Below are positions 57,081 through 64,000 of a stretch of 64,000 bases of DNA, piece after piece. The position numbers and the translations under genes are program-made. The number at the start of each line of letters is the position of its first letter. The first letter of the stretch is position 1. The notes under the pieces are model-generated. The model saw only the letters and a program-made list of their open reading frames with translations. It had not been told where the DNA came from and made no database searches. The DNA comes from an uncultured Litoreibacter sp. (GTDB taxonomy: Bacteria > Pseudomonadota > Alphaproteobacteria > Rhodobacterales > Rhodobacteraceae): positions 248,001 to 312,000 of the forward strand of contig CANLQL010000003.1 of assembly GCA_947493265.1 (NCBI GenBank), written 5' to 3'.

Positions 57081-58667
57081 TTAGGCCACTTGGATGGTGC
57101 GGGCCGCTTCTGGCAAAACCACGTCCCCACCGACGCGCATCCGCGCATGGAAACGGACCATAGACTTGGAAGCCAAGGTGAAAGGATCACGCAAAACGCT
57201 GATTTCCAGCCGGGACACCACTCGGTAAGCGCGCGACATGTCACCAAAAAGGATGGCTTTGGCGTTCTGTACGGGATCAGGCATGTCCGGGGCCTCATAG
57301 ACAGGACGGCCCAGAATGGTGGCAGGCTGACCGTCTGCAAGGCTTTCGCGCCAGATGTAGTCACCATTGGCAGTCTTCAACTTGCGGACTTCGGCGAGCG
57401 TGGCGGAATTCATCATCCACGCACCATTGCCACGGTAAGACGCCTTCACTCTGTAAAAAGTGGTGATCATGTCATCCGCATCAATTGTCCCTGCCTGACC
57501 AGACGGGTCCGCAGCAATGTCGGCACTGTCCAGAATGCCTTTTGGCTTGCCGACGCCATCGCCAAGGATGAATGCAGCGCTTTCAGCTTCACCGAAGGCT
57601 TCTGCAAAATCGCTGGTCAGTTCGGACTGCATGTCAAAGGCACTGTCTTCCAAGTTCTGATTGGAAATGGCTGTGAAGACACCGATTTCGTGAACCGGGA
57701 TTTTGACTTGGCCATAAGTGGGTTCATCTTCCGGGCGGTCCGCCAATTCAGCCGTCCAGCCACCTGCCAGCTTGGTCAGGCGTTTGGGCATGATCAGTTC
57801 ATCCCGGCCCGTGTTGGTGGTGCGCGATAGCTGGCGCATAGGGCTGACTTCGGTGATGTTTTTGATCAGTTCGGCGCGGTAGTCTTCCGGCACCAAGGCA
57901 CCACCCTGCGCGTCATTGCCGGAGTTCAGGGCCTTTTGTTCTTCGGCCCCCATGTTCTCACGGCCAAAGCGGGCGAAGTCCTCAAAGGCTTTCACTTCCG
58001 GCGCGCGGTTGGTGTTGGCAACGGCTGGCGCTGCGTTGATGTTTGCCGCCTTGGCTTCAAGATCAGCCATGCGGTCATTCAGTTTCTTCACTTCGGCGTC
58101 CAGTTCGGGCGCGTGTTCAGTAGGCATGTCTTTGCCCCCTTCTGTTGCGGCCTTCTGGGCCTTGGTTTTGGTGCCATCAGCGGCACCCTTTACGTCCGTG
58201 ACCTTCGCGGCTTCATTGGCCGGGAAAGTGACAACGGAAATTTCCACAAGTTCGATTTCGGTCAGGGTGCGACCACCGCCGGAACGGGGTTCAGCACTCA
58301 CAGTGCGGTAACCAATGGACAGGCTGTCCAAGACGCCATCTTTCATCAGGGCGTGGACGTCCTTGCCGTCCGTGGCGTCCAAGGTCAGGCGTCCTTCCAC
58401 CTGCAACCCCAGCGCGCTGTCTTTGATCTTGGTCCACTTACCAATGGGCTTTAGCGGGTCATGGTTGGCCAGCATCTTCACCTTGCGCCCAGCCGCCCGG
58501 ATGGCGTCCAAGGAAGCCGTGAAGGCCCCCGGCGCGATGACATCACCAACGCCATCAGGGGACCCGCCATAGGTGGCTGCAATCCCCTTGATGACCCCGG
58601 CGGTGGGGTTCTGGAACTTCACTTCAACGGGGAAGTGTTCCAGCTTTTCAGTCTTGTTCTTAGGCAT
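57081..58667 (-). CDS. HK97-type prohead protease fused to major capsid protein
   Basis: A 528-residue fusion. Residues 1-160 are an HK97 prohead protease: LANHDPLKPIGKW holds the His and GVLDSLSIGYRT the Ser of the active site. A linker (about 160-200) leads to a coiled segment (LDAEVKKLNDRMADLEAKAANI), the scaffold-like delta region, and then the HK97-fold capsid (RAELIKNITEVSPMRQLSRTT..., IFTAISNQNLEDSAFDM-type core). The protease would cut itself off during head maturation. ATG with AAAGG upstream was chosen over GTG nine bases earlier. It overlaps the preceding 39-codon gene by eight bases. Confidence 0.88.
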   Translation of the reverse strand: MPKNKTEKLEHFPVEVKFQNPTAGVIKGIAATYGGSPDGVGDVIAPGAFTASLDAIRAAGRKVKMLANHDPLKPIGKWTKIKDSALGLQVEGRLTLDATDGKDVHALMKDGVLDSLSIGYRTVSAEPRSGGGRTLTEIELVEISVVTFPANEAAKVTDVKGAADGTKTKAQKAATEGGKDMPTEHAPELDAEVKKLNDRMADLEAKAANINAAPAVANTNRAPEVKAFEDFARFGRENMGAEEQKALNSGNDAQGGALVPEDYRAELIKNITEVSPMRQLSRTTNTGRDELIMPKRLTKLAGGWTAELADRPEDEPTYGQVKIPVHEIGVFTAISNQNLEDSAFDMQSELTSDFAEAFGEAESAAFILGDGVGKPKGILDSADIAADPSGQAGTIDADDMITTFYRVKASYRGNGAWMMNSATLAEVRKLKTANGDYIWRESLADGQPATILGRPVYEAPDMPDPVQNAKAILFGDMSRAYRVVSRLEISVLRDPFTLASKSMVRFHARMRVGGDVVLPEAARTIQVA

Positions 58668-58779
58668 TGCGTTCACCTTTCTTGCTGCGGTGGACCAGTT
58701 GCAGGGCCAACCGTCGCCATGACCACGGCGCGTTGGTTGGGACTTTCAGGATTTCGGGATCAGCTTTCAGTTTCGGCAT
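58660..58779 (-). CDS. 39-residue basic protein between portal and protease-capsid genes
   Basis: ATG-CCG-AAA starts a 39-codon frame (MPKLKADPEILKVPTN ... LVHRSKKGERNA) that overlaps the portal stop by 20 bases and the protease-capsid start by eight. This double overlap and the basic, Trp-containing sequence argue for a real gene. Small ORFs in this position occur in HK97-type head clusters, such as g3.5 of the Rhodobacter gene transfer agent; the role is unknown. Confidence 0.6.
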   Translation of the reverse strand: MPKLKADPEILKVPTNAPWSWRRLALQLVHRSKKGERNA

Positions 58780-59932
58780 TGTCAGCCCCTTCCATGTTCA
58801 GTGGCCGCAGGAATTCATCACCGCCCGGATAGGGGCTGCGGTTTTCCATCGCGCGGACTTCGTTTGGTGACAGAATTCCGGTGGTGACGGCCTTGGCGAA
58901 GGCTTCCATGCGCGCGGCCAAGTCGGCCTTGGCGATGTCATCGGTCAGGAATTCGGCGTAAGCGGACCCGTCTTCCGGCATCAGCTTCAAGTTGATTTCT
59001 TGTTCCCACGCTTTCAGCCACGGCATCATGGTGAATTGCAGAAACTGACGTCCAAGCTGTTCCGCGTTTTGGTGGGTGATGCGTTCCAGTTCCTGCAGCA
59101 TGTGCAGCGGCACCCGGAACGCACGGGCGATTTCGGCCACCTGATGGCGGCGCAATTCCAAGAACTGCATGTCAGCGTGTGCAATACCAAGCGGGTGGTA
59201 TTTTGCGGACCCATCCACCACAGCCGTGCCTTTGTTTTTTCCAAGCGATTGAAACTGTTTCTGGGCGCGGCTGATGGCGTCATCCGTCATTGCGTTTTCA
59301 AAGGCCAAGATACCCGCAGGACGCTGGCCAGAAGACAGGCTTTGCGCCAGTTCGGTTTCCTGTTGCAGCGCCAGCCCAATGGCTTCCTTGATTTGGGTGG
59401 TGATTGCCAAACCCATTAGGCCCTTGATGTGCAGGATGTCCCGGTGGCGATAGATGCGGTTTCCACCCTCACTTAAAGTGACGCGGTAGCGCGGTTCCCC
59501 GGTGATGTTGTTTTCTTCCATATGGACAGACCGGGCGGGCAACTGGCGCAGGAAACGCGGGTTGTCCGCGCCGTCACGCTGAATAAGCGCGAAGGCACCA
59601 CCGTGCAGCAACACATCCGCCTGCATGGACACACGGAAGTCATAGGCGGTGGTCCAGTCATTCGGGGCTTTGGTAAACATGCGGTGAAACGCGCTGGCAC
59701 GGTCCCGTTCCACGGACCCATCCGCGTTGCGGACATAGGCGTGAAGCGGGATTTGCCCCACGGTTTCTGTGATGGTCCTGACACAAGCAAAAACGGTGGA
59801 CTGTTGCAGGGCCAGTTCGGGCGTCACCACCAGCCCCGCTTTGGTGGGCTGGGATGGCCACAGCATGTCAAACACACTGCCAGCCTTCTTCTGTTCGATC
59901 ACTTGGACCTTGGGTTTGAACGGCCAGACCAT
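58760..59932 (-). CDS. HK97-type phage portal protein
   Basis: A 390-residue portal. TPELALQQSTVFACVRTITETVGQIPLHAY is the family N-terminal pattern, with LLHGGAFALIQRDGADNP, the PLHMLQELERITHQNAEQLGRQFLQFTMMPWLKAWEQEINLKL block and the C-terminal ILSPNEVRAMENRSPYPGGDEFL. The portal forms the DNA entry ring of the head. Its ATG shares one base with the previous stop. A terminase large subunit is not upstream, where it is usually found. Confidence 0.93.
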   Translation of the reverse strand: MVWPFKPKVQVIEQKKAGSVFDMLWPSQPTKAGLVVTPELALQQSTVFACVRTITETVGQIPLHAYVRNADGSVERDRASAFHRMFTKAPNDWTTAYDFRVSMQADVLLHGGAFALIQRDGADNPRFLRQLPARSVHMEENNITGEPRYRVTLSEGGNRIYRHRDILHIKGLMGLAITTQIKEAIGLALQQETELAQSLSSGQRPAGILAFENAMTDDAISRAQKQFQSLGKNKGTAVVDGSAKYHPLGIAHADMQFLELRRHQVAEIARAFRVPLHMLQELERITHQNAEQLGRQFLQFTMMPWLKAWEQEINLKLMPEDGSAYAEFLTDDIAKADLAARMEAFAKAVTTGILSPNEVRAMENRSPYPGGDEFLRPLNMEGADNAETES

Positions 59933-60249
59933 CAGATGGCACCCCCGTCCGGGGCGTCCACAAGGACGTTGCCATCTGTGTCCACAAGGAACAGTTCAGA
60001 CGCGCTTATCTGTACTGCTTGGATGGTCAGCGGTTGGTCAGAAACTGGTCGGACCCAGACGCCTTCCTGTCCGTTATAGGTGAAGGACTTCACCTGCCCA
60101 TGCGCGGCCATGTAAAGGCTGGCATACTGATCAGCCGGGGCGGCATCACCGAAGGCCACGCGGATGTGTCCAAGGCCCCAGAACAGGCTGTGCGGCCCGG
60201 TCCCCACAAGCGTCCATTCATTGGCTGGGAGGGTCACCTTGGCAATCAT
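59932..60249 (-). CDS. small head-module protein, paralogue 2
   Basis: A 105-residue protein with WTLVGTGPHSLFWGLGHIRVAFGDAAPADQYASLYMAAHGQVKSF. The same line-up occurs in the preceding gene, so the two are tandem paralogues. They sit upstream of the portal, suggesting a virion or head-decoration role. Not assignable to a named family by eye. It overlaps its upstream neighbour by four bases. Confidence 0.65.
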   Translation of the reverse strand: MIAKVTLPANEWTLVGTGPHSLFWGLGHIRVAFGDAAPADQYASLYMAAHGQVKSFTYNGQEGVWVRPVSDQPLTIQAVQISASELFLVDTDGNVLVDAPDGGAI

Positions 60250-60680
60250 GACGCGGCCATCCAGAAACTTCCGGGTGTGCCTTTGTCGCCGCCCAGAACC
60301 GCGTGGACGCCATTCAGCGCATCCACCGGGTCATTGGTCACCAGACCAAGGGTCCCAGCTTCTAAGGTCGTGGGGTCTGGCAATTCAGAATAGCGGGTGT
60401 AGACCTTGATTGACGTGTCCTGCGCAGACGCGGCCAAGGTCCCCGTGATCACAATGACATCCGTGGTGGCTTCCACTGCGCGCGCCCAGACGGTTTCGGC
60501 CTTGGCGAAGCTGACCAGCCGGACTTGGCCACCAGCGGTGTGCAGGTAGCCGCTGCGGTCATCTGTGGGGGCAGTATCGCCAAAATCAAACCACATGCGC
60601 CCACGGTTCAGACCAACAGCCAGCGGACCTGTTCCAAGGTCTGTCCAAGTGGTGTTTACGGTGGCGCGGGTGGTCGGCAC
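60246..60680 (-). CDS. small head-module protein, paralogue 1
   Basis: A 144-residue protein with TDLGTGPLAVGLNRGRMWFDFGDTAPTDDRSGYLHTAGGQVRLVSF, parallel to paralogue 2, and a C-terminal extension with ELPDPTTLEAGTLGLVTNDPVDALNGVHAVLGG, like phage proteins that follow a decoration domain. It is the first gene of the capsid operon. The start is GTG with no clear ribosome site; an inverted repeat lies just upstream. Confidence 0.65.
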   Translation of the reverse strand: MPTTRATVNTTWTDLGTGPLAVGLNRGRMWFDFGDTAPTDDRSGYLHTAGGQVRLVSFAKAETVWARAVEATTDVIVITGTLAASAQDTSIKVYTRYSELPDPTTLEAGTLGLVTNDPVDALNGVHAVLGGDKGTPGSFWMAAS

Positions 60681-60689
60681 GGAGGGTCA

Positions 60690-60710
60690 GCCAAGTTGAT
60701 TTCACTTGGC
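60690..60710. promoter_or_regulatory. inverted repeat upstream of the capsid operon
   Basis: GCCAAGT-TGATTTC-ACTTGGC, ten bases ahead of the GTG start of the first head-module gene. It could hide the ribosome site in mRNA or bind a regulator. Confidence 0.5.
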
Positions 60711-60760
60711 CACCCATGAAGGGCAAATTTGCGGACCCGTCAAAAGCCCGATTACCTGTA

Positions 60761-60810
60761 TTTCCCTGTCCTTCCCTATCCTTCCCTAAATTTCCCTAAA
60801 TTTCCCGGCG
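60761..60810. repeat. five TTTCCC/TTCCCT iterons at exact 10-bp period
   Basis: Five consecutive decamers begin TTTCCCTGTC, CTTCCCTATC, CTTCCCTAAA, TTTCCCTAAA, TTTCCCGGCG. TTCCC falls on the same helical face each turn. They lie in the divergent region between the capsid operon and the helix-turn-helix gene and share the half-site of the GGGAAATTTCCC palindromes 1.2-1.8 kb away. They could be activator sites, a replication origin or a packaging signal. Confidence 0.8.
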
Positions 60811-60858
60811 TTTTGTAACATTCCGTGAACGGCACAGGCGGCGTTTGCTGCGGCGCGG

Positions 60859-61353
60859 ATGGTGACAACGGTGCCGCATCAAAATCAAAATTCGGTCACC
60901 TCTACAGATGTCACCGTTGCAGATGCCGCGTCTCTTTGGGGAGTTTCCCCCGCGTCCGTTGTTCGCGCCCGTCGCATCGCAGGCAAGGGCGGTCTGGTCA
61001 TGTCCCGCGCCAAAACCGGGGCGCTTTCGTTGTCCCAGTCTGAGAAGGAAGACCTTGCGGTCACCCTGAACGTCACGTCCAAAAACACCCCGCTTTACGT
61101 CCGGGCGCTTGGAGCCGCGCGGATGGTAAAGGCGGCACCTCACGGCGAAAAGATGGGTCAAATTCGCCATCTGGCGAATATCTGGCAAGTGAGTGAACGC
61201 CTTGTTGAAAGAGCCGGGCGCGTTGATGATGGTCACCCGTTGGTGGTGGCCGAAGTTGAAGCCGAACGCCTGACCATGGCGGCGGTGTTATTTCACAATC
61301 CGTGGCTTTGGAAACGCCCGCGCATGCCGGTCATCAGCTTCTTTATCCGATAG
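60859..61353 (+). CDS. helix-turn-helix protein, possible element regulator or small terminase-like
   Basis: A 164-residue protein. TVADAASLWGVSPASVVRARRIAGKGG and HLANIWQVSERLVERAGRV are two helix-turn-helix-like segments; SEKEDLAVTLNVTSKNTPLYVRALGAARMVKAAP lies between. It is the only plus-strand gene in the head region, starting 49 bases from the TTTCCC iterons. A regulator acting on those iterons is a reasonable guess; a small terminase is the alternative. The 3' end overlaps the convergent operon by 66 bases. Confidence 0.6.
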   Translation: MVTTVPHQNQNSVTSTDVTVADAASLWGVSPASVVRARRIAGKGGLVMSRAKTGALSLSQSEKEDLAVTLNVTSKNTPLYVRALGAARMVKAAPHGEKMGQIRHLANIWQVSERLVERAGRVDDGHPLVVAEVEAERLTMAAVLFHNPWLWKRPRMPVISFFIR

Positions 61354-61578
61354 CGGCTTTTCCAACCAAATTATTTGCCGCAATAGGTCCGCGCCCTGAG
61401 CTGGTGCCATTGGCATGTCCGCCATTGCTTGGAATTCGTCCACCGCCATTTCAATCCCGGCCAAGAGGGTGTCCCGGTGAACAGTTGAAAACATGGATTG
61501 CAATGCTTCCATCGGGTCACCGTTGCGGGTGAACGATATGGCCATGGCCTGTTCCATCACGTCTTCTTCAATTGTCAT
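61288..61578 (-). CDS. small paralogue family member X3
   Basis: A 96-residue acidic protein with EEDVMEQAMAISFTRNGDPMEALQS and TLLAGIEMAVDEFQAMADMP. Both blocks line up with X2 and X1 encoded upstream (LMRGVELAVVKTEDLMAEAP; LLTGLEIAETELHVMAANA). Family unknown. The start overlaps the X2 stop by 11 bases. The tail is basic. Confidence 0.65.
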   Translation of the reverse strand: MTIEEDVMEQAMAISFTRNGDPMEALQSMFSTVHRDTLLAGIEMAVDEFQAMADMPMAPAQGADLLRQIIWLEKPLSDKEADDRHARAFPKPRIVK

Positions 61579-61855
61579 TTTTCACCACCCGCAGATGCGC
61601 CCGCTGTTTCCGTTTCTCAGACCGTATTGCGTCTTCAATTTGGCCAGCCCATTTACTGTAACGTCCCTTGGAATAGACTGGGGCTTCTGCCATCAGGTCT
61701 TCCGTCTTGACCACCGCCAGTTCTACACCGCGCATCAACGTGGGTTCGGACATAAAGGGCATCCGAAGGCGGATGGCCGCGAAGATGTCGGGCTTTTCCC
61801 GGTAGGTGTAATTCATCGCATTCAGCGCAATTTCGTCTTCAACCGTGTAGGTCAT
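61568..61855 (-). CDS. small paralogue family member X2
   Basis: A 95-residue protein, MTYTVEDEIALNAMNYTYREKPDIFAAIRLRMPFMSEPTLMRGVELAVVKTEDLMAEAP plus a basic tail (SEKRKQRAHLRVVKNDN). It is a paralogue of X1 and X3. The ribosome site AAAGGAACCCATC directly precedes ATG and is nearly repeated ahead of the tandem-unit gene. Function unknown. Confidence 0.65.
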   Translation of the reverse strand: MTYTVEDEIALNAMNYTYREKPDIFAAIRLRMPFMSEPTLMRGVELAVVKTEDLMAEAPVYSKGRYSKWAGQIEDAIRSEKRKQRAHLRVVKNDN

Positions 61856-61866
61856 GATGGGTTCCT

Positions 61867-62589
61867 TTAGTTGCCTGCGGGGTGGTTCAGGATGGTGTTG
61901 CGGCCCACGCCAGACTGCCAGAATTCGCTTTCTGCGGCGTTTGACTTTCCCAAGGTGGGAAATTTCCCACGCACCAATTCCACCGCCACCAGCCGCGCGA
62001 TTGCGGCCACGCCTGCGGGGTGGTTCAGGATGGTTCTGCGGCCCACGCCTTCTGACCAGAAGTATTGTTCTGCCTTTGCATCTGATTTTGTGCGGGGAAA
62101 TTTCCCCGGACAGAATTCCACCGCCACCAGCCGCGCGATTGCGGCCACGCCTGCGGGGTGGTTCAGGATGGTGTTGCGGCCCACGCCTTCTGACCAGAAC
62201 ATTGCGTCAAACTTACCCTTGGATTGAGCGTTGTCACTTCTGGGAAATTTCCCAGAAGTCACATCCACCGCCACCAGCCGCGCGATTGCGGCCACGCCTG
62301 CGGGATGGTTCAGGATGGTTCTGCGGCTGACACCATCAGCCCAGAATTTTCCTTCAAGGCGTTTATGCGGATCGTTTTGGGGAAATTTCCCCAAAACAAA
62401 GTCCACCGCCACCAGCCGCGCGATTGCGGCCACGCCTGCGGGATGGTTCAGGATAGTTTTCCGGCCCACGCCTTCGGACCAAAACTGGTGTTCTGTGCGG
62501 TCTTTTGAATTTGCGGTGGGAAATTTCCCACCGCAAAAGTCCACCGCCACCAGCCGCGCGATTGCGGCCACGCTGTCCAAGACGATCAA
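61867..62589 (-). CDS. tandem-repeat protein with palindrome-bearing units
   Basis: A 240-residue protein built of five units of 46 residues (one of 49). Each unit has a constant half (FW-x-x-GVGR-x-TILNHPAGVAAIARLVAV) and a variable half around the constant GKFP. TTG start overlaps the X1 stop (TTGA) and the stop lies 11 bases before X2, so it is embedded in a coupled operon. The five GKFP codons are the core of perfect DNA palindromes with different arms, so DNA-level selection acts within the reading frame. No family recognised. It could be a repeat scaffold protein, or the translation could be secondary to a DNA function. Confidence 0.6.
   Translation of the reverse strand: MIVLDSVAAIARLVAVDFCGGKFPTANSKDRTEHQFWSEGVGRKTILNHPAGVAAIARLVAVDFVLGKFPQNDPHKRLEGKFWADGVSRRTILNHPAGVAAIARLVAVDVTSGKFPRSDNAQSKGKFDAMFWSEGVGRNTILNHPAGVAAIARLVAVEFCPGKFPRTKSDAKAEQYFWSEGVGRRTILNHPAGVAAIARLVAVELVRGKFPTLGKSNAAESEFWQSGVGRNTILNHPAGN
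61955..62537. repeat. array of five palindromes with constant core and co-varying arms
   Basis: Perfect palindromes at 61955-61970 (16 bp), 62093-62108 (16), 62236-62259 (24), 62374-62397 (24) and 62510-62537 (28). All are centred on GGGAAATTTCCC; left arms outward of the core read GTG-shared, CG, ACTTCT, GTTTTG and TTTGCGGT and are matched on the right. Centres are 138, 147, 138 and 138 bp apart. Between them are about 75 bp of near-identical sequence and about 40 bp that vary. Confidence 0.9.
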
Positions 62590-62870
62590 GATGGGTTCCG
62601 TCCTTTCCGTTCACGCATCGCGTGTGCTTGTTCCCGGACAACGCCCTGTGCGCCAATCAGGCGGCGGGTCAGTCCTTGAAGTTCCCTTTCCCGCTTCCGC
62701 GTGTTGGCGTTCGCGGCCATCACGTGGAGTTCCGTTTCTGCAATTTCCAAACCCGTCAAAAGCTGCGGCGCGTGTGCCTTCGGAAACGTCACTTGCAGAT
62801 ATTCCACCAACCCCGCGCCGTTCGCGTTTTTGATCTTTTCCAACGCCACTTGGGCGATTTGGTATTCCAT
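62586..62870 (-). CDS. small paralogue family member X1
   Basis: A 94-residue protein, MEYQIAQVALEKIKNANGAGLVEYLQVTFPKAHAPQLLTGLEIAETELHVMAANANTRKRERELQGLTRR, basic at the end. Paralogue of X2 and X3. ATG with GGAAGGAAAT upstream was chosen over GTG 21 bases earlier because it aligns with the starts of X2 and X3. Its TGA overlaps the next TTG start. Confidence 0.65.
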   Translation of the reverse strand: MEYQIAQVALEKIKNANGAGLVEYLQVTFPKAHAPQLLTGLEIAETELHVMAANANTRKRERELQGLTRRLIGAQGVVREQAHAMRERKGRNPS

Positions 62871-62895
62871 CGGATTTCCTTCCGTTTTCACCCGG

Positions 62896-63312
62896 CTATT
62901 TTAGCCCGTCAGGGGCATCTTGGCCATCTGGGTGGGGACACAGAGCCGGAACTATAACGGGCCTGTGCGGGCCGTTTTGACAGGAGTTCGGTTTCATCGC
63001 GCGCTTGGTCCCATCGGGCAGCGTCACGATTTCCCCGGTGCGTTCCATTTCGGAAATGAGTTGGTCCAAGGGGTCAGCGTCCACCACCTTGGCCACCTGC
63101 GCCGCCCGTTCAACCGTCGCGCGGCTGACACCCCTTTCTTTGGCAATGGTCGCGGCTTCTTTTCCAAAGCCAGCCTCACTTTGAGGCTGGCTTTTCCCCT
63201 TCTGCGCACCGGCTTCCGCAAATGTCTTCTTCCGGCTTTCATGTGCGCGGCCCATGACCATGACGCGCTGTGCGTCGGTCAGGTTGCGCCGGGACAGTGG
63301 GTCAGGCTTCAT
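62896..63312 (-). CDS. phage/plasmid-type helix-turn-helix protein
   Basis: A 138-residue protein. RRNLTDAQRVMVMGRAHESRKKTF and EAATIAKERGVSRATVERAAQVAKVVD are the two blocks of a widespread phage and plasmid family in which the second block is a helix-turn-helix like that of ParB-type proteins. The C-terminal 40 residues are Pro-rich. DNA binding is likely. It overlaps its upstream neighbour by four bases. Confidence 0.7.
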   Translation of the reverse strand: MKPDPLSRRNLTDAQRVMVMGRAHESRKKTFAEAGAQKGKSQPQSEAGFGKEAATIAKERGVSRATVERAAQVAKVVDADPLDQLISEMERTGEIVTLPDGTKRAMKPNSCQNGPHRPVIVPALCPHPDGQDAPDGLK

Positions 63313-63695
63313 TGTGGCTTCTTCCCACCAGCCAAATAGGCGCTGACATCAACCGTGGACGGGTCAATGTGGCGAACTGGACCCGCCTTGGATTTCGGCC
63401 AGCGGTCCTTCTTTTTCTTCTTCTTTTTCGGATACGCCTTGGTGAAGGCCACATCTTGCAGGCGATTGGGAAGGCGCTTCGCCGCCTTCTTGGCCCTCTT
63501 CAAGCTGCCCTTGGGTTCGCCACTTATCTTGAAGCACCAGTCACTGACAGATTGCGCCCTGTTGACGGGTTCAAAGTTTAGCTTATCCACGTGCCGCCAC
63601 GCCTCACGCGACGTGGGGAAGTCCCCAGCGCTGACGCCACTGGCATGAATTACACGGTGCAGCCCGTTGGCCATTTGTTTAACGCGATAAGTCAT
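63309..63695 (-). CDS. basic unknown protein with a lysine run
   Basis: A 128-residue strongly basic protein. The N-terminal 50 residues (MTYRVKQMANGLHRVIHASGVSAGDFPTSREAWRHVDKLN) look folded; the middle has YPKKKKKKKDRWPKSK and other Lys/Arg clusters, so nucleic acid contact is likely. Not recognised. The start shares one base with the previous stop. Confidence 0.6.
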   Translation of the reverse strand: MTYRVKQMANGLHRVIHASGVSAGDFPTSREAWRHVDKLNFEPVNRAQSVSDWCFKISGEPKGSLKRAKKAAKRLPNRLQDVAFTKAYPKKKKKKKDRWPKSKAGPVRHIDPSTVDVSAYLAGGKKPQ

Positions 63696-64000
63696 CAGCT
63701 TGTCCTTTTCATTGCATTGTCCCGGCGTTGGTTCTTGGTGGATGGTTCGGGATTTTCACCCCCCCCGCCCCCTTCCGGGGGTGCCGTCACCGCTGACGCG
63801 ATGACGTGTAGTTTTTTTTGGCCAGTTTTTTGACGTTCCAGATAGTGATTGATGGGGTCATTGCTGGGGAATGGGATGACGATTTCGTCTGGCCCATCCG
63901 GCACGCGGCGCGCAGGGGCTGGTGACCAAGTGCTTGGATCATCCGTCTGGTCAATAACAGCCAAAGGCCCGCCTTTTTTTGGCGTAGTTATTAGGACGCC
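63695..64000 (-). CDS. C-terminal part of an unidentified protein (runs off the right edge)
   Basis: The frame is open from the stop to the last base, reading LITTPKKGGPLAVIDQTDD before the first start-like codon (TTG at 63964), so the gene probably begins beyond the window. The visible residues include DEIVIPFPSNDPINHYLERQKTGQKKL and a Gly/Pro-rich linker. It is translated in the same operon as the following genes. Not recognised. Confidence 0.5.
   Translation of the reverse strand, partial: GVLITTPKKGGPLAVIDQTDDPSTWSPAPARRVPDGPDEIVIPFPSNDPINHYLERQKTGQKKLHVIASAVTAPPEGGGGGENPEPSTKNQRRDNAMKRTS

Follow-up and report, generated by a model that had tools for sequence, protein, structure and literature searches.

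How can the two arms of a palindrome that lies inside a protein-coding repeat differ from one repeat unit to the next and be complementary to each other within each unit? The question is raised by a single gene of the window (the whole 64-kb stretch of DNA analysed here), in which five units share the same palindromic core and four of them carry different, matching arms, with graded decay and with traces of lost symmetry at the level of the protein. Selection on the symmetry and production of the symmetry by copying predict different things at such an array, and which of the two lies behind matched changes of stem arms is treated as an open question in PMC8794818.

The repeat gene and the element that carries it

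The gene (Table 1) starts with a TTG codon overlapping the stop codon of the upstream ORF, has no internal stops when matched to the whole genome and sits within a row of small same-strand ORFs. Alignment of the units resolves its product into five tandem repeats of 46, 46, 49, 46 and 46 aa, and the protein is presumably made and functional. Profile searches gave no confident family for the small ORF on either side of the gene. The three minus-strand ORFs at 61288-61578, 61568-61855 and 62586-62891 resemble each other by eye, the resemblance consisting of a Gly-(Ile/Val/Leu)-Glu-(Met/Leu/Ile)-Ala stretch, and are possibly a small paralogous family.

Table 1. Positions of the repeat-array gene, its units and palindromes, and neighbouring genes (numbering of the window)
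Feature	Positions	Strand	Basis
Repeat-array gene, 240-aa ORF	61867..62589	minus	ORF list, tandem repeats, unit alignment
Unit 1, 46 aa, closest to gene start	62434..62571	minus	unit alignment
Unit 2, 46 aa	62296..62433	minus	unit alignment
Unit 3, 49 aa	62149..62295	minus	unit alignment
Unit 4, 46 aa	62011..62148	minus	unit alignment
Unit 5, 46 aa, final unit	61873..62010	minus	unit alignment
Palindrome of unit 1, perfect 28 bp	62510..62537	none	palindrome search
Palindrome of unit 2, perfect 24 bp	62374..62397	none	palindrome search
Palindrome of unit 3, perfect 24 bp, 9/10 arm positions paired	62236..62259	none	palindrome search
Palindrome of unit 4, decayed, ~32 bp around perfect 16 bp (62093-62108), 8/10 arm positions paired	62085..62116	none	
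Palindrome of unit 5, perfect 16 bp only	61955..61970	none	palindrome search
Small ORF upstream in the row of the array gene, overlapping its start	62586..62891	minus	ORF list
Small ORF downstream of the array gene	61568..61855	minus	ORF list
Phage portal protein gene, same element	58760..59932	minus	Pfam Phage_portal 1.3e-84
Fused prohead protease and major capsid gene, same element	57081..58676	minus	Pfam Peptidase_S78 4.3e-27, Phage_capsid 1.4e-80

In addition to the portal and capsid genes, two genes reach or lie past the end of the window, one resembling replication-initiation genes (PHROG E 2.4e-04) and the other coding for a phage-type integrase (PHROG E 3.5e-18) that matches general phage integrase families. 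Window positions 57081-64000 and the adjoining L009:1-10338 can be read together as one compact integrated element. Besides the integrase and the replication-like gene it has the portal gene, the fused protease-capsid gene and many small ORFs; the part of its ORFs that was scanned yielded neither a terminase nor a tail gene. Between the portal-side genes and the small ORFs, at 60782-60806, lies a tandem repeat, TTCCCTAAAT, in 2.5 perfect copies. The element resembles either a satellite with a capsid gene of its own or a prophage that has undergone reduction. Capsid-forming PICIs are compact integrated elements that have their own integrase and head genes and depend on a helper phage. The likeness of the present element to these islands (for the name, see PMC11389934) concerns its compactness, its integrated state and its own integrase and head genes.

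The array is an accessory gene of this element. A compact element akin to it, found in a different genus of the family (genome G003, L065:12138-19529), has an integrase, small ORFs, a portal protein 67% identical and a capsid protein 68% identical to those described here, and tblastn at 1e-3 detected in it neither an array nor a ParB-like gene; one of its short ORFs is, by eye, similar to an excisionase/AlpA-type regulator. As a source of the array, 12 stretches around related capsid genes from 11 genomes (two of the stretches being shorter than 7 kb) were rejected, since they contain no core and no array or ParB-like match at E 1e-3.

Strength and extent of the arm symmetry

All five units contain the 12-bp core GGGAAATTTCCC, read in frame as the codons of Gly-Lys-Phe-Pro, with core starts 138, 147, 138 and 138 bp apart. 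Palindromes built on a fixed core had been reported in the first-pass annotation, and their positions, lengths and spacings (138 or 147 bp) are confirmed here. The array holds five of the eight perfect palindromes of at least 14 bp in the 64-kb window. With up to one mismatch allowed, the core occurs five times in the window against 0.20 expected, five copies being reached by 0/100 shuffles, and the whole 3.5-Mb genome has seven occurrences of it, two of which lie outside the array. At one of these two copies 2/10 arm positions match; at the other (C5:12910-12921) 7/10 match, with the innermost position mismatched and no perfect run adjoining the core. There, too, the reading frame gives Gly-Lys-Phe-Pro, within an ORF of 321 aa whose product is glycosyltransferase-like by eye.

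The arms are paired in a unit-specific manner. When the reverse complement of each 5′ arm was compared with the 3′ arm of every unit, the true pairs gave perfect runs of 8, 6, 6, 2 and 2, and none of the 20 mismatched pairings within the array exceeded 3. The ten positions flanking the core contain 8, 7, 9, 8 and 3 matches in units 1 to 5, respectively, and beyond 10 bp the matches (18/70 over the next fourteen positions per unit, five units) are at chance level. Over the first nine arm positions 33/45 match; under a random-codon null with codons drawn from window usage, 1,000,000 resampled draws averaged 11.9 and never exceeded 30.

The core itself, present in 32/179 genomes drawn from the family, provided a control of 31 sites, namely the two in the source genome and 29 loci that represent 29 of the 31 further genomes containing the core. 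At these sites 104/310 of the inner ten arm positions and 108/434 of the next fourteen match, the longest perfect run is 4, and 3/31 reach 7/10 (0.34% expected by chance), as opposed to the array, where four of the five units have at least 7/10 and the runs are 8, 6 and 6. Two control loci from other genomes of the family (L096 and L105) have a 4-bp perfect extension of the core and 7/10 arm matches. There is thus a mild general excess of arm complementarity adjoining the core, far below that of the array; such an excess fits a core that acts as a seed for copying, and some of these 12-bp palindromes may merely belong to longer functional ones.

That the symmetry arose by chance around an unrelated codon palindrome of Gly-Lys-Phe-Pro has a negligible probability. 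The palindromic core may indeed come from codon choice (given Gly-Lys-Phe-Pro, the four core codons have a probability of 0.012 under window codon usage), units 4 and 5 are weak on perfect runs, and the three unrelated cores just mentioned also reach 7/10; nevertheless, the 33 matches exceed the maximum of a million resampled draws, and runs of 8, 6 and 6 occur in true pairs only. On the run and resampling tests chance symmetry was rejected for units 1-4. The earlier statement that the symmetry is not accidental, and would not result from independent drift, therefore holds on the evidence of the true-pair runs, the 33/45 matches and the protein-level test described below.

In four of the five units the arms are ~10 bp long and have decayed to different degrees; they end where the invariant part of the unit starts. 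Units 1-4 have 40 arm positions between them, of which 32 form Watson-Crick pairs, one would pair as G-U in the mRNA and seven form neither. Unit 4 is a decayed long palindrome although its perfect palindrome spans only 16 bp; unit 5 is hardly above chance beyond its two inner base pairs and, taken alone, could be due to chance. The claim of a perfect palindrome in every unit is correct for all five, but long perfect arms are found in only three, the two 16-bp palindromes extending the core by 2 bp per side. Similarly, the series 16, 16, 24, 24 and 28, which had been described as a rise of arm length along the gene, is right as to the lengths but is better read as ~10-bp arms in four units with differing decay; in the direction of transcription the length of the perfect palindrome falls.

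The encoded residues extend this picture. If the complementarity permitted by the protein is expressed as the longest run that any choice of codons allows, the true pairs have values of 8, 8, 10, 10 and 4, a run of 8 being reached by 0/20 mismatched pairings and by 0.62% of 6404 positions in 12 genes of the window. Since the values for units 2, 3 and 4 are 8, 10 and 10, the mismatches inside the complementary span of these units fall at synonymous positions; their residues record a longer palindrome than the DNA now displays, the protein having been kept and the full symmetry not. With the protein held fixed, the choice of codons favors symmetry in unit 1 (P 0.008) and in unit 3 (P 0.0001-0.0007), the corresponding values being 0.06-0.21 for unit 2, 0.11-0.42 for unit 4, 0.16-0.27 for unit 5 and 0.49-1.0 for the Tateyamaria unit described below. 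These values argue against a strict present-day upkeep of the symmetry throughout the array, upkeep being possible in units 1 and 3.

Variation is distributed very unevenly along the unit. Over 138 compared columns (the 9 extra nucleotides of unit 3 being left out) no change is seen in the first 32 or in the 12 of the core. Variable columns make up 9/10 of the left arm, 32/33 of the stretch that follows the core and 15/51 of the remaining end, where most of them lie close to the variable part. The 30 nt of the left end are shared 30/30 by units 1-5 and 25/30 with Tateyamaria. In the right part synonymous differences per site clearly exceed non-synonymous ones in 12/15 pairs, the exceptions being units 3-4 and 4-5, and units 3-5 with about equal values. 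All five variable segments keep the frame, with 33 or 42 nt in the array and 30 nt in Tateyamaria. The alignment suggests a protein-coding repeat whose ends would be homogenised by recombination, with its middle diverging.

Relatives of the unit and origin of the arms

The only relative found in the contigs of 84,980 species, where 79 pattern matches yielded this single one, is a 379-aa protein of a Tateyamaria sp. (locus L013) that has one unit; the scan required exact peptides of 8-9 residues, which distant relatives could escape. This protein has a ParB N-terminal domain, above the cut-off in Pfam (E 2.7e-07) and under the cut-off of the model for TIGR00180 (1.8e-09), followed by the unit, which is 63% identical to an array unit. 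The core is kept, the arm run is 0 bp and 4/9 arm positions match. The Tateyamaria stretch also contains an integrase and a capsid gene 70% identical to that of the window. Judged by sequence, the unit represents part of a ParB-like protein and, from its position after the N-terminal domain, perhaps the part that forms the DNA-binding helices in ParB; the profile of the unit can be aligned with the ParB stretch GKSRSYIAN over only 9 columns and with 1.9% probability. The homologue is thus like the ParB/Spo0J family (PF02195, TIGR00180) in having the N-terminal domain before its unit, whereas the array protein, in which Pfam searches find no such domain, keeps just five copies of the post-domain segment.

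Two further features of the Tateyamaria locus may be mentioned. Upstream of the ParB-like gene, at L013:7129-7213, there are two similar 20-bp stretches, one of them with the inverted repeat TGACGTGGCGTCA, which are possibly the operator of the ParB-like protein. Between the capsid and ParB-like genes, on the minus strand at L013:4870-6306, lies a 478-aa ORF that resembles a homing endonuclease, with matches to the I-TevI DNA-binding model and, below threshold, to NUMOD1.

Queries with the array protein or the unit profile match the source genome only, in 1/390 genomes of the order, 1/394 of the family and 1/289 of the class (overlapping draws), and the DNA pattern from the core to the Phe-Trp codons is found in the source alone among 21 genomes of its genus. 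Queries with the array protein, the Tateyamaria homologue and the DNA pattern returned no relative of the array from viral contigs, nor did tblastn with the array protein from phage and plasmid records. With the Tateyamaria homologue as the query, matches came from 4 phage records and 16 plasmid records, all in the ParB domain region or slightly beyond it and none spanning 80% of the query, and from 11/295 family genomes, namely the source array plus ten that match over the ParB domain region only and whose translations look, in most cases, like chromosomal ParB. Within the genus Tateyamaria 2/20 genomes match, the known carrier and a second at E 0.003, which was rejected; its 150-aa ORF has an FWSEG-like stretch alone and no GKFP.

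These comparisons bear on two accounts of where the segments came from. One is that the units are a stock of variable segments, each with its own palindrome, acquired by recombination through the flanks from several ParB-like genes and serving as a specificity library or decoy. The variable segments differ between units about as much as they do from Tateyamaria, the flanks being nearly identical, and all the lengths are in frame; on the other hand, no donor turned up in viral contigs, in phage and plasmid records (array tblastn) or in genomes beyond Tateyamaria, the palindromic nature of the segments is left unexplained and the sole natural allele found is not palindromic in its arms, so that this account is unlikely. 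Less probable still is that a palindromic selfish coding element, of the type of the Rickettsia palindromic elements, was inserted and then duplicated in tandem. Coding segments that are palindromic and in frame have precedents (cited in PMC2996958 and PMC6649704), but there is no empty site, Tateyamaria having the core at the same place with a following segment of 30 nt instead of 33, and the arms have no sequence in common between units.

The best explanation, which we consider about as probable as all the others combined (roughly 0.5), is core-seeded template switching, by which one arm is rewritten from the other within a tandem coding repeat that has homogenised flanks. This repeat would have been built from an internal piece of a ParB-like gene carried by an integrated element with a capsid gene; the core would fold into a short hairpin during replication, and this hairpin would repeatedly trigger template switching, so that the growing strand gains one ~10-nt arm by copying its partner in reverse-complement form. 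Repeated copying would render the arms complementary within a unit and different between units, recombination between the units would keep the flanking 32 nt identical, and the symmetry would later be worn down by point mutations that leave the protein unchanged. We infer both the switching and the homogenisation from the pattern in the units: template switching is favored because the complementary arms are unit-specific, the center is kept, the boundary is sharp, some units are decayed and G-U pairs are few, this last feature fitting copying somewhat better than a pair-by-pair compensation in RNA. Arms complementary within the locus around a kept center are seen in units 1-4 and not in unit 5. 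Since the Tateyamaria unit has the core with a run of 0 bp, the core need not come with arms.

Precedents for the single steps exist. In E. coli, template switching at quasipalindromes turns imperfect repeats into more perfect ones (PMC7202029), and in coding genes of yeast it homogenises the arms (PMC8604942). It can also alter both sides of a stem, with several changes at once and the loop kept, the evidence for maintenance of short stems being called circumstantial by the authors concerned (PMC8794818). As to the direction, the 5′ arm is the probable source, because the left arms of unit 4 and Tateyamaria have 8 nt in common at a 1-nt shift (P 0.009) and their right arms differ, because left arms are slightly more alike between units than right arms (identity 0.37 vs 0.30) and because the left-arm codons look more hydrophobic by eye.

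A single round of copying is argued against by the fact that both arms differ between units, so that several cycles of change and re-copying are needed; no intermediates of this kind were found. Template switching does not explain well where the differences between the arms of different units come from, nor the ~33 nt 3′ of the core, whose divergence equals that of the arms. Beyond the arms, only unit 1 gives a hint that the opposite flank was copied (gapped p 0.011, ungapped p 0.19, uncorrected). The possibility that the right segments are rearranged copies of the left flank was discarded, values below 0.05 being obtained only for unit 1 (gapped) and, through the arm itself, for unit 3. The synonymous mismatches are also compatible with weak or recently relaxed selection on the symmetry, and six units from two genomes do not allow rates to be estimated.

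The main rival, to which we give a distinctly lower though appreciable weight, is that selection keeps a hairpin or cruciform with a fixed center and free arms, either as an RNA signal or as a DNA site read by its shape, the arms co-varying by compensation. Units 1-3 are more stable than their shuffles both as RNA (z -5.1, -5.9 and -5.0) and as DNA (z -4.8, -4.7 and -4.3), with 0/200 shuffles as stable in each case; the core DNA is invariant in all six units, that of Tateyamaria included, with the low codon probability given above, and with the protein fixed the codon choice of units 1 and 3 is symmetric. The same analyses are less favorable elsewhere, in that unit 4, unit 5 and the homologue are not clearly above shuffles (RNA z -1.1, -1.3 and -1.6; DNA z -0.8, -1.4 and -0.8) and the protein-fixed P is not small in units 2, 4 and 5 and in Tateyamaria. 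Furthermore, no outer structure is kept (P 0.19-0.85, six units, two strands) and no Rfam family reaches its gathering score. A larger conserved RNA structure was rejected, its outer stem not beating codon shuffles, as was membership of an Rfam family, with one sub-threshold microRNA match and one sub-threshold match in Tateyamaria L013.

The first-pass annotation had proposed that the symmetry itself is kept, either by selection or by copying. Copying, by template switching, is the best explanation, but the symmetry is not kept throughout, since part of it is lost in unit 4, little or none is present in unit 5 and the homologue, and units 2-4 have synonymous mismatches. As a sign of accidental symmetry it had pointed to homologues with asymmetric arms and a conserved protein; Tateyamaria does have the core without arm symmetry, but its arm amino acids differ too. 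No evidence supporting the suggested binding, packaging or recombination array emerged from the examination of the outer RNA structure and of the integron core motif, and a single dimeric protein would not be expected to recognize arms whose sequences are unrelated.

If copying is indeed responsible, complementary changes alone do not prove a functional stem. A more speculative and rather doubtful extension is that the core is a built-in seed for hypermutation, template switching rewriting, beside the core, each repeat of a modular protein of DNA-binding type and recombination keeping their scaffold uniform; were this true, a phage-like element would diversify one of its proteins without a reverse transcriptase.

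Comparison with known systems

No description of a tandem array having a fixed core and unit-specific matching arms was found in the open-licence literature. The core sites of integron attC, GTTRRRY, lie at the ends of the palindrome, and none occurs on either strand of 61867-62589. As in attC (PMC2727003), the structure is kept and the sequence varies; unlike attC, the array has its conserved part at the center and not at the ends.

The palindrome that grows more perfect, the center that can stay and the occurrence in coding DNA are common to the array and to the quasipalindromes studied for template switching (PMC7202029, PMC8794818, PMC8604942). Those studies follow mutants or reconstructed ancestors, whereas here five units of one gene are compared and there is no ancestral record. 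The coding palindromes of Nematomorpha mitochondria (PMC6649704) are likewise perfect inverted repeats within protein genes, but they are up to 284 bp long, both their arms encode conserved protein and no tandem array with unit-specific arms was seen among them. Rickettsia palindromic elements, as described via PMC6649704 and PMC2996958, are in-frame palindromic coding DNA of an alphaproteobacterium; they are insertions at assorted places, whereas the array has no insertion with respect to its homologue.

The nearest described elements are the PARCELs (Roske et al. 2010, PMC2996958), whose coding repeats stand in tandem, show dyad symmetry and in some taxa are located on mobile elements, and the earlier view that no described element has this form is, in their light, too strong. 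The array has in common with them dyad symmetry in tandem coding repeats within an ORF, strongly variable hydrophilic residues, a patchy distribution and the association with a mobile element, here one with portal and capsid genes, an adjoining integrase and a replication-like gene. The array is nevertheless not a PARCEL. PARCELs have their own 25-residue motif, similar to DUF285/TIGR02167, for which the array gave no match at E up to 1 in Pfam-A and NCBIfam, and their palindromic motifs are imperfect and derived statistically over the repeats, whereas the units of the array are ParB-like, are 46-49 aa long, and have only the core in common, each with arms of its own.
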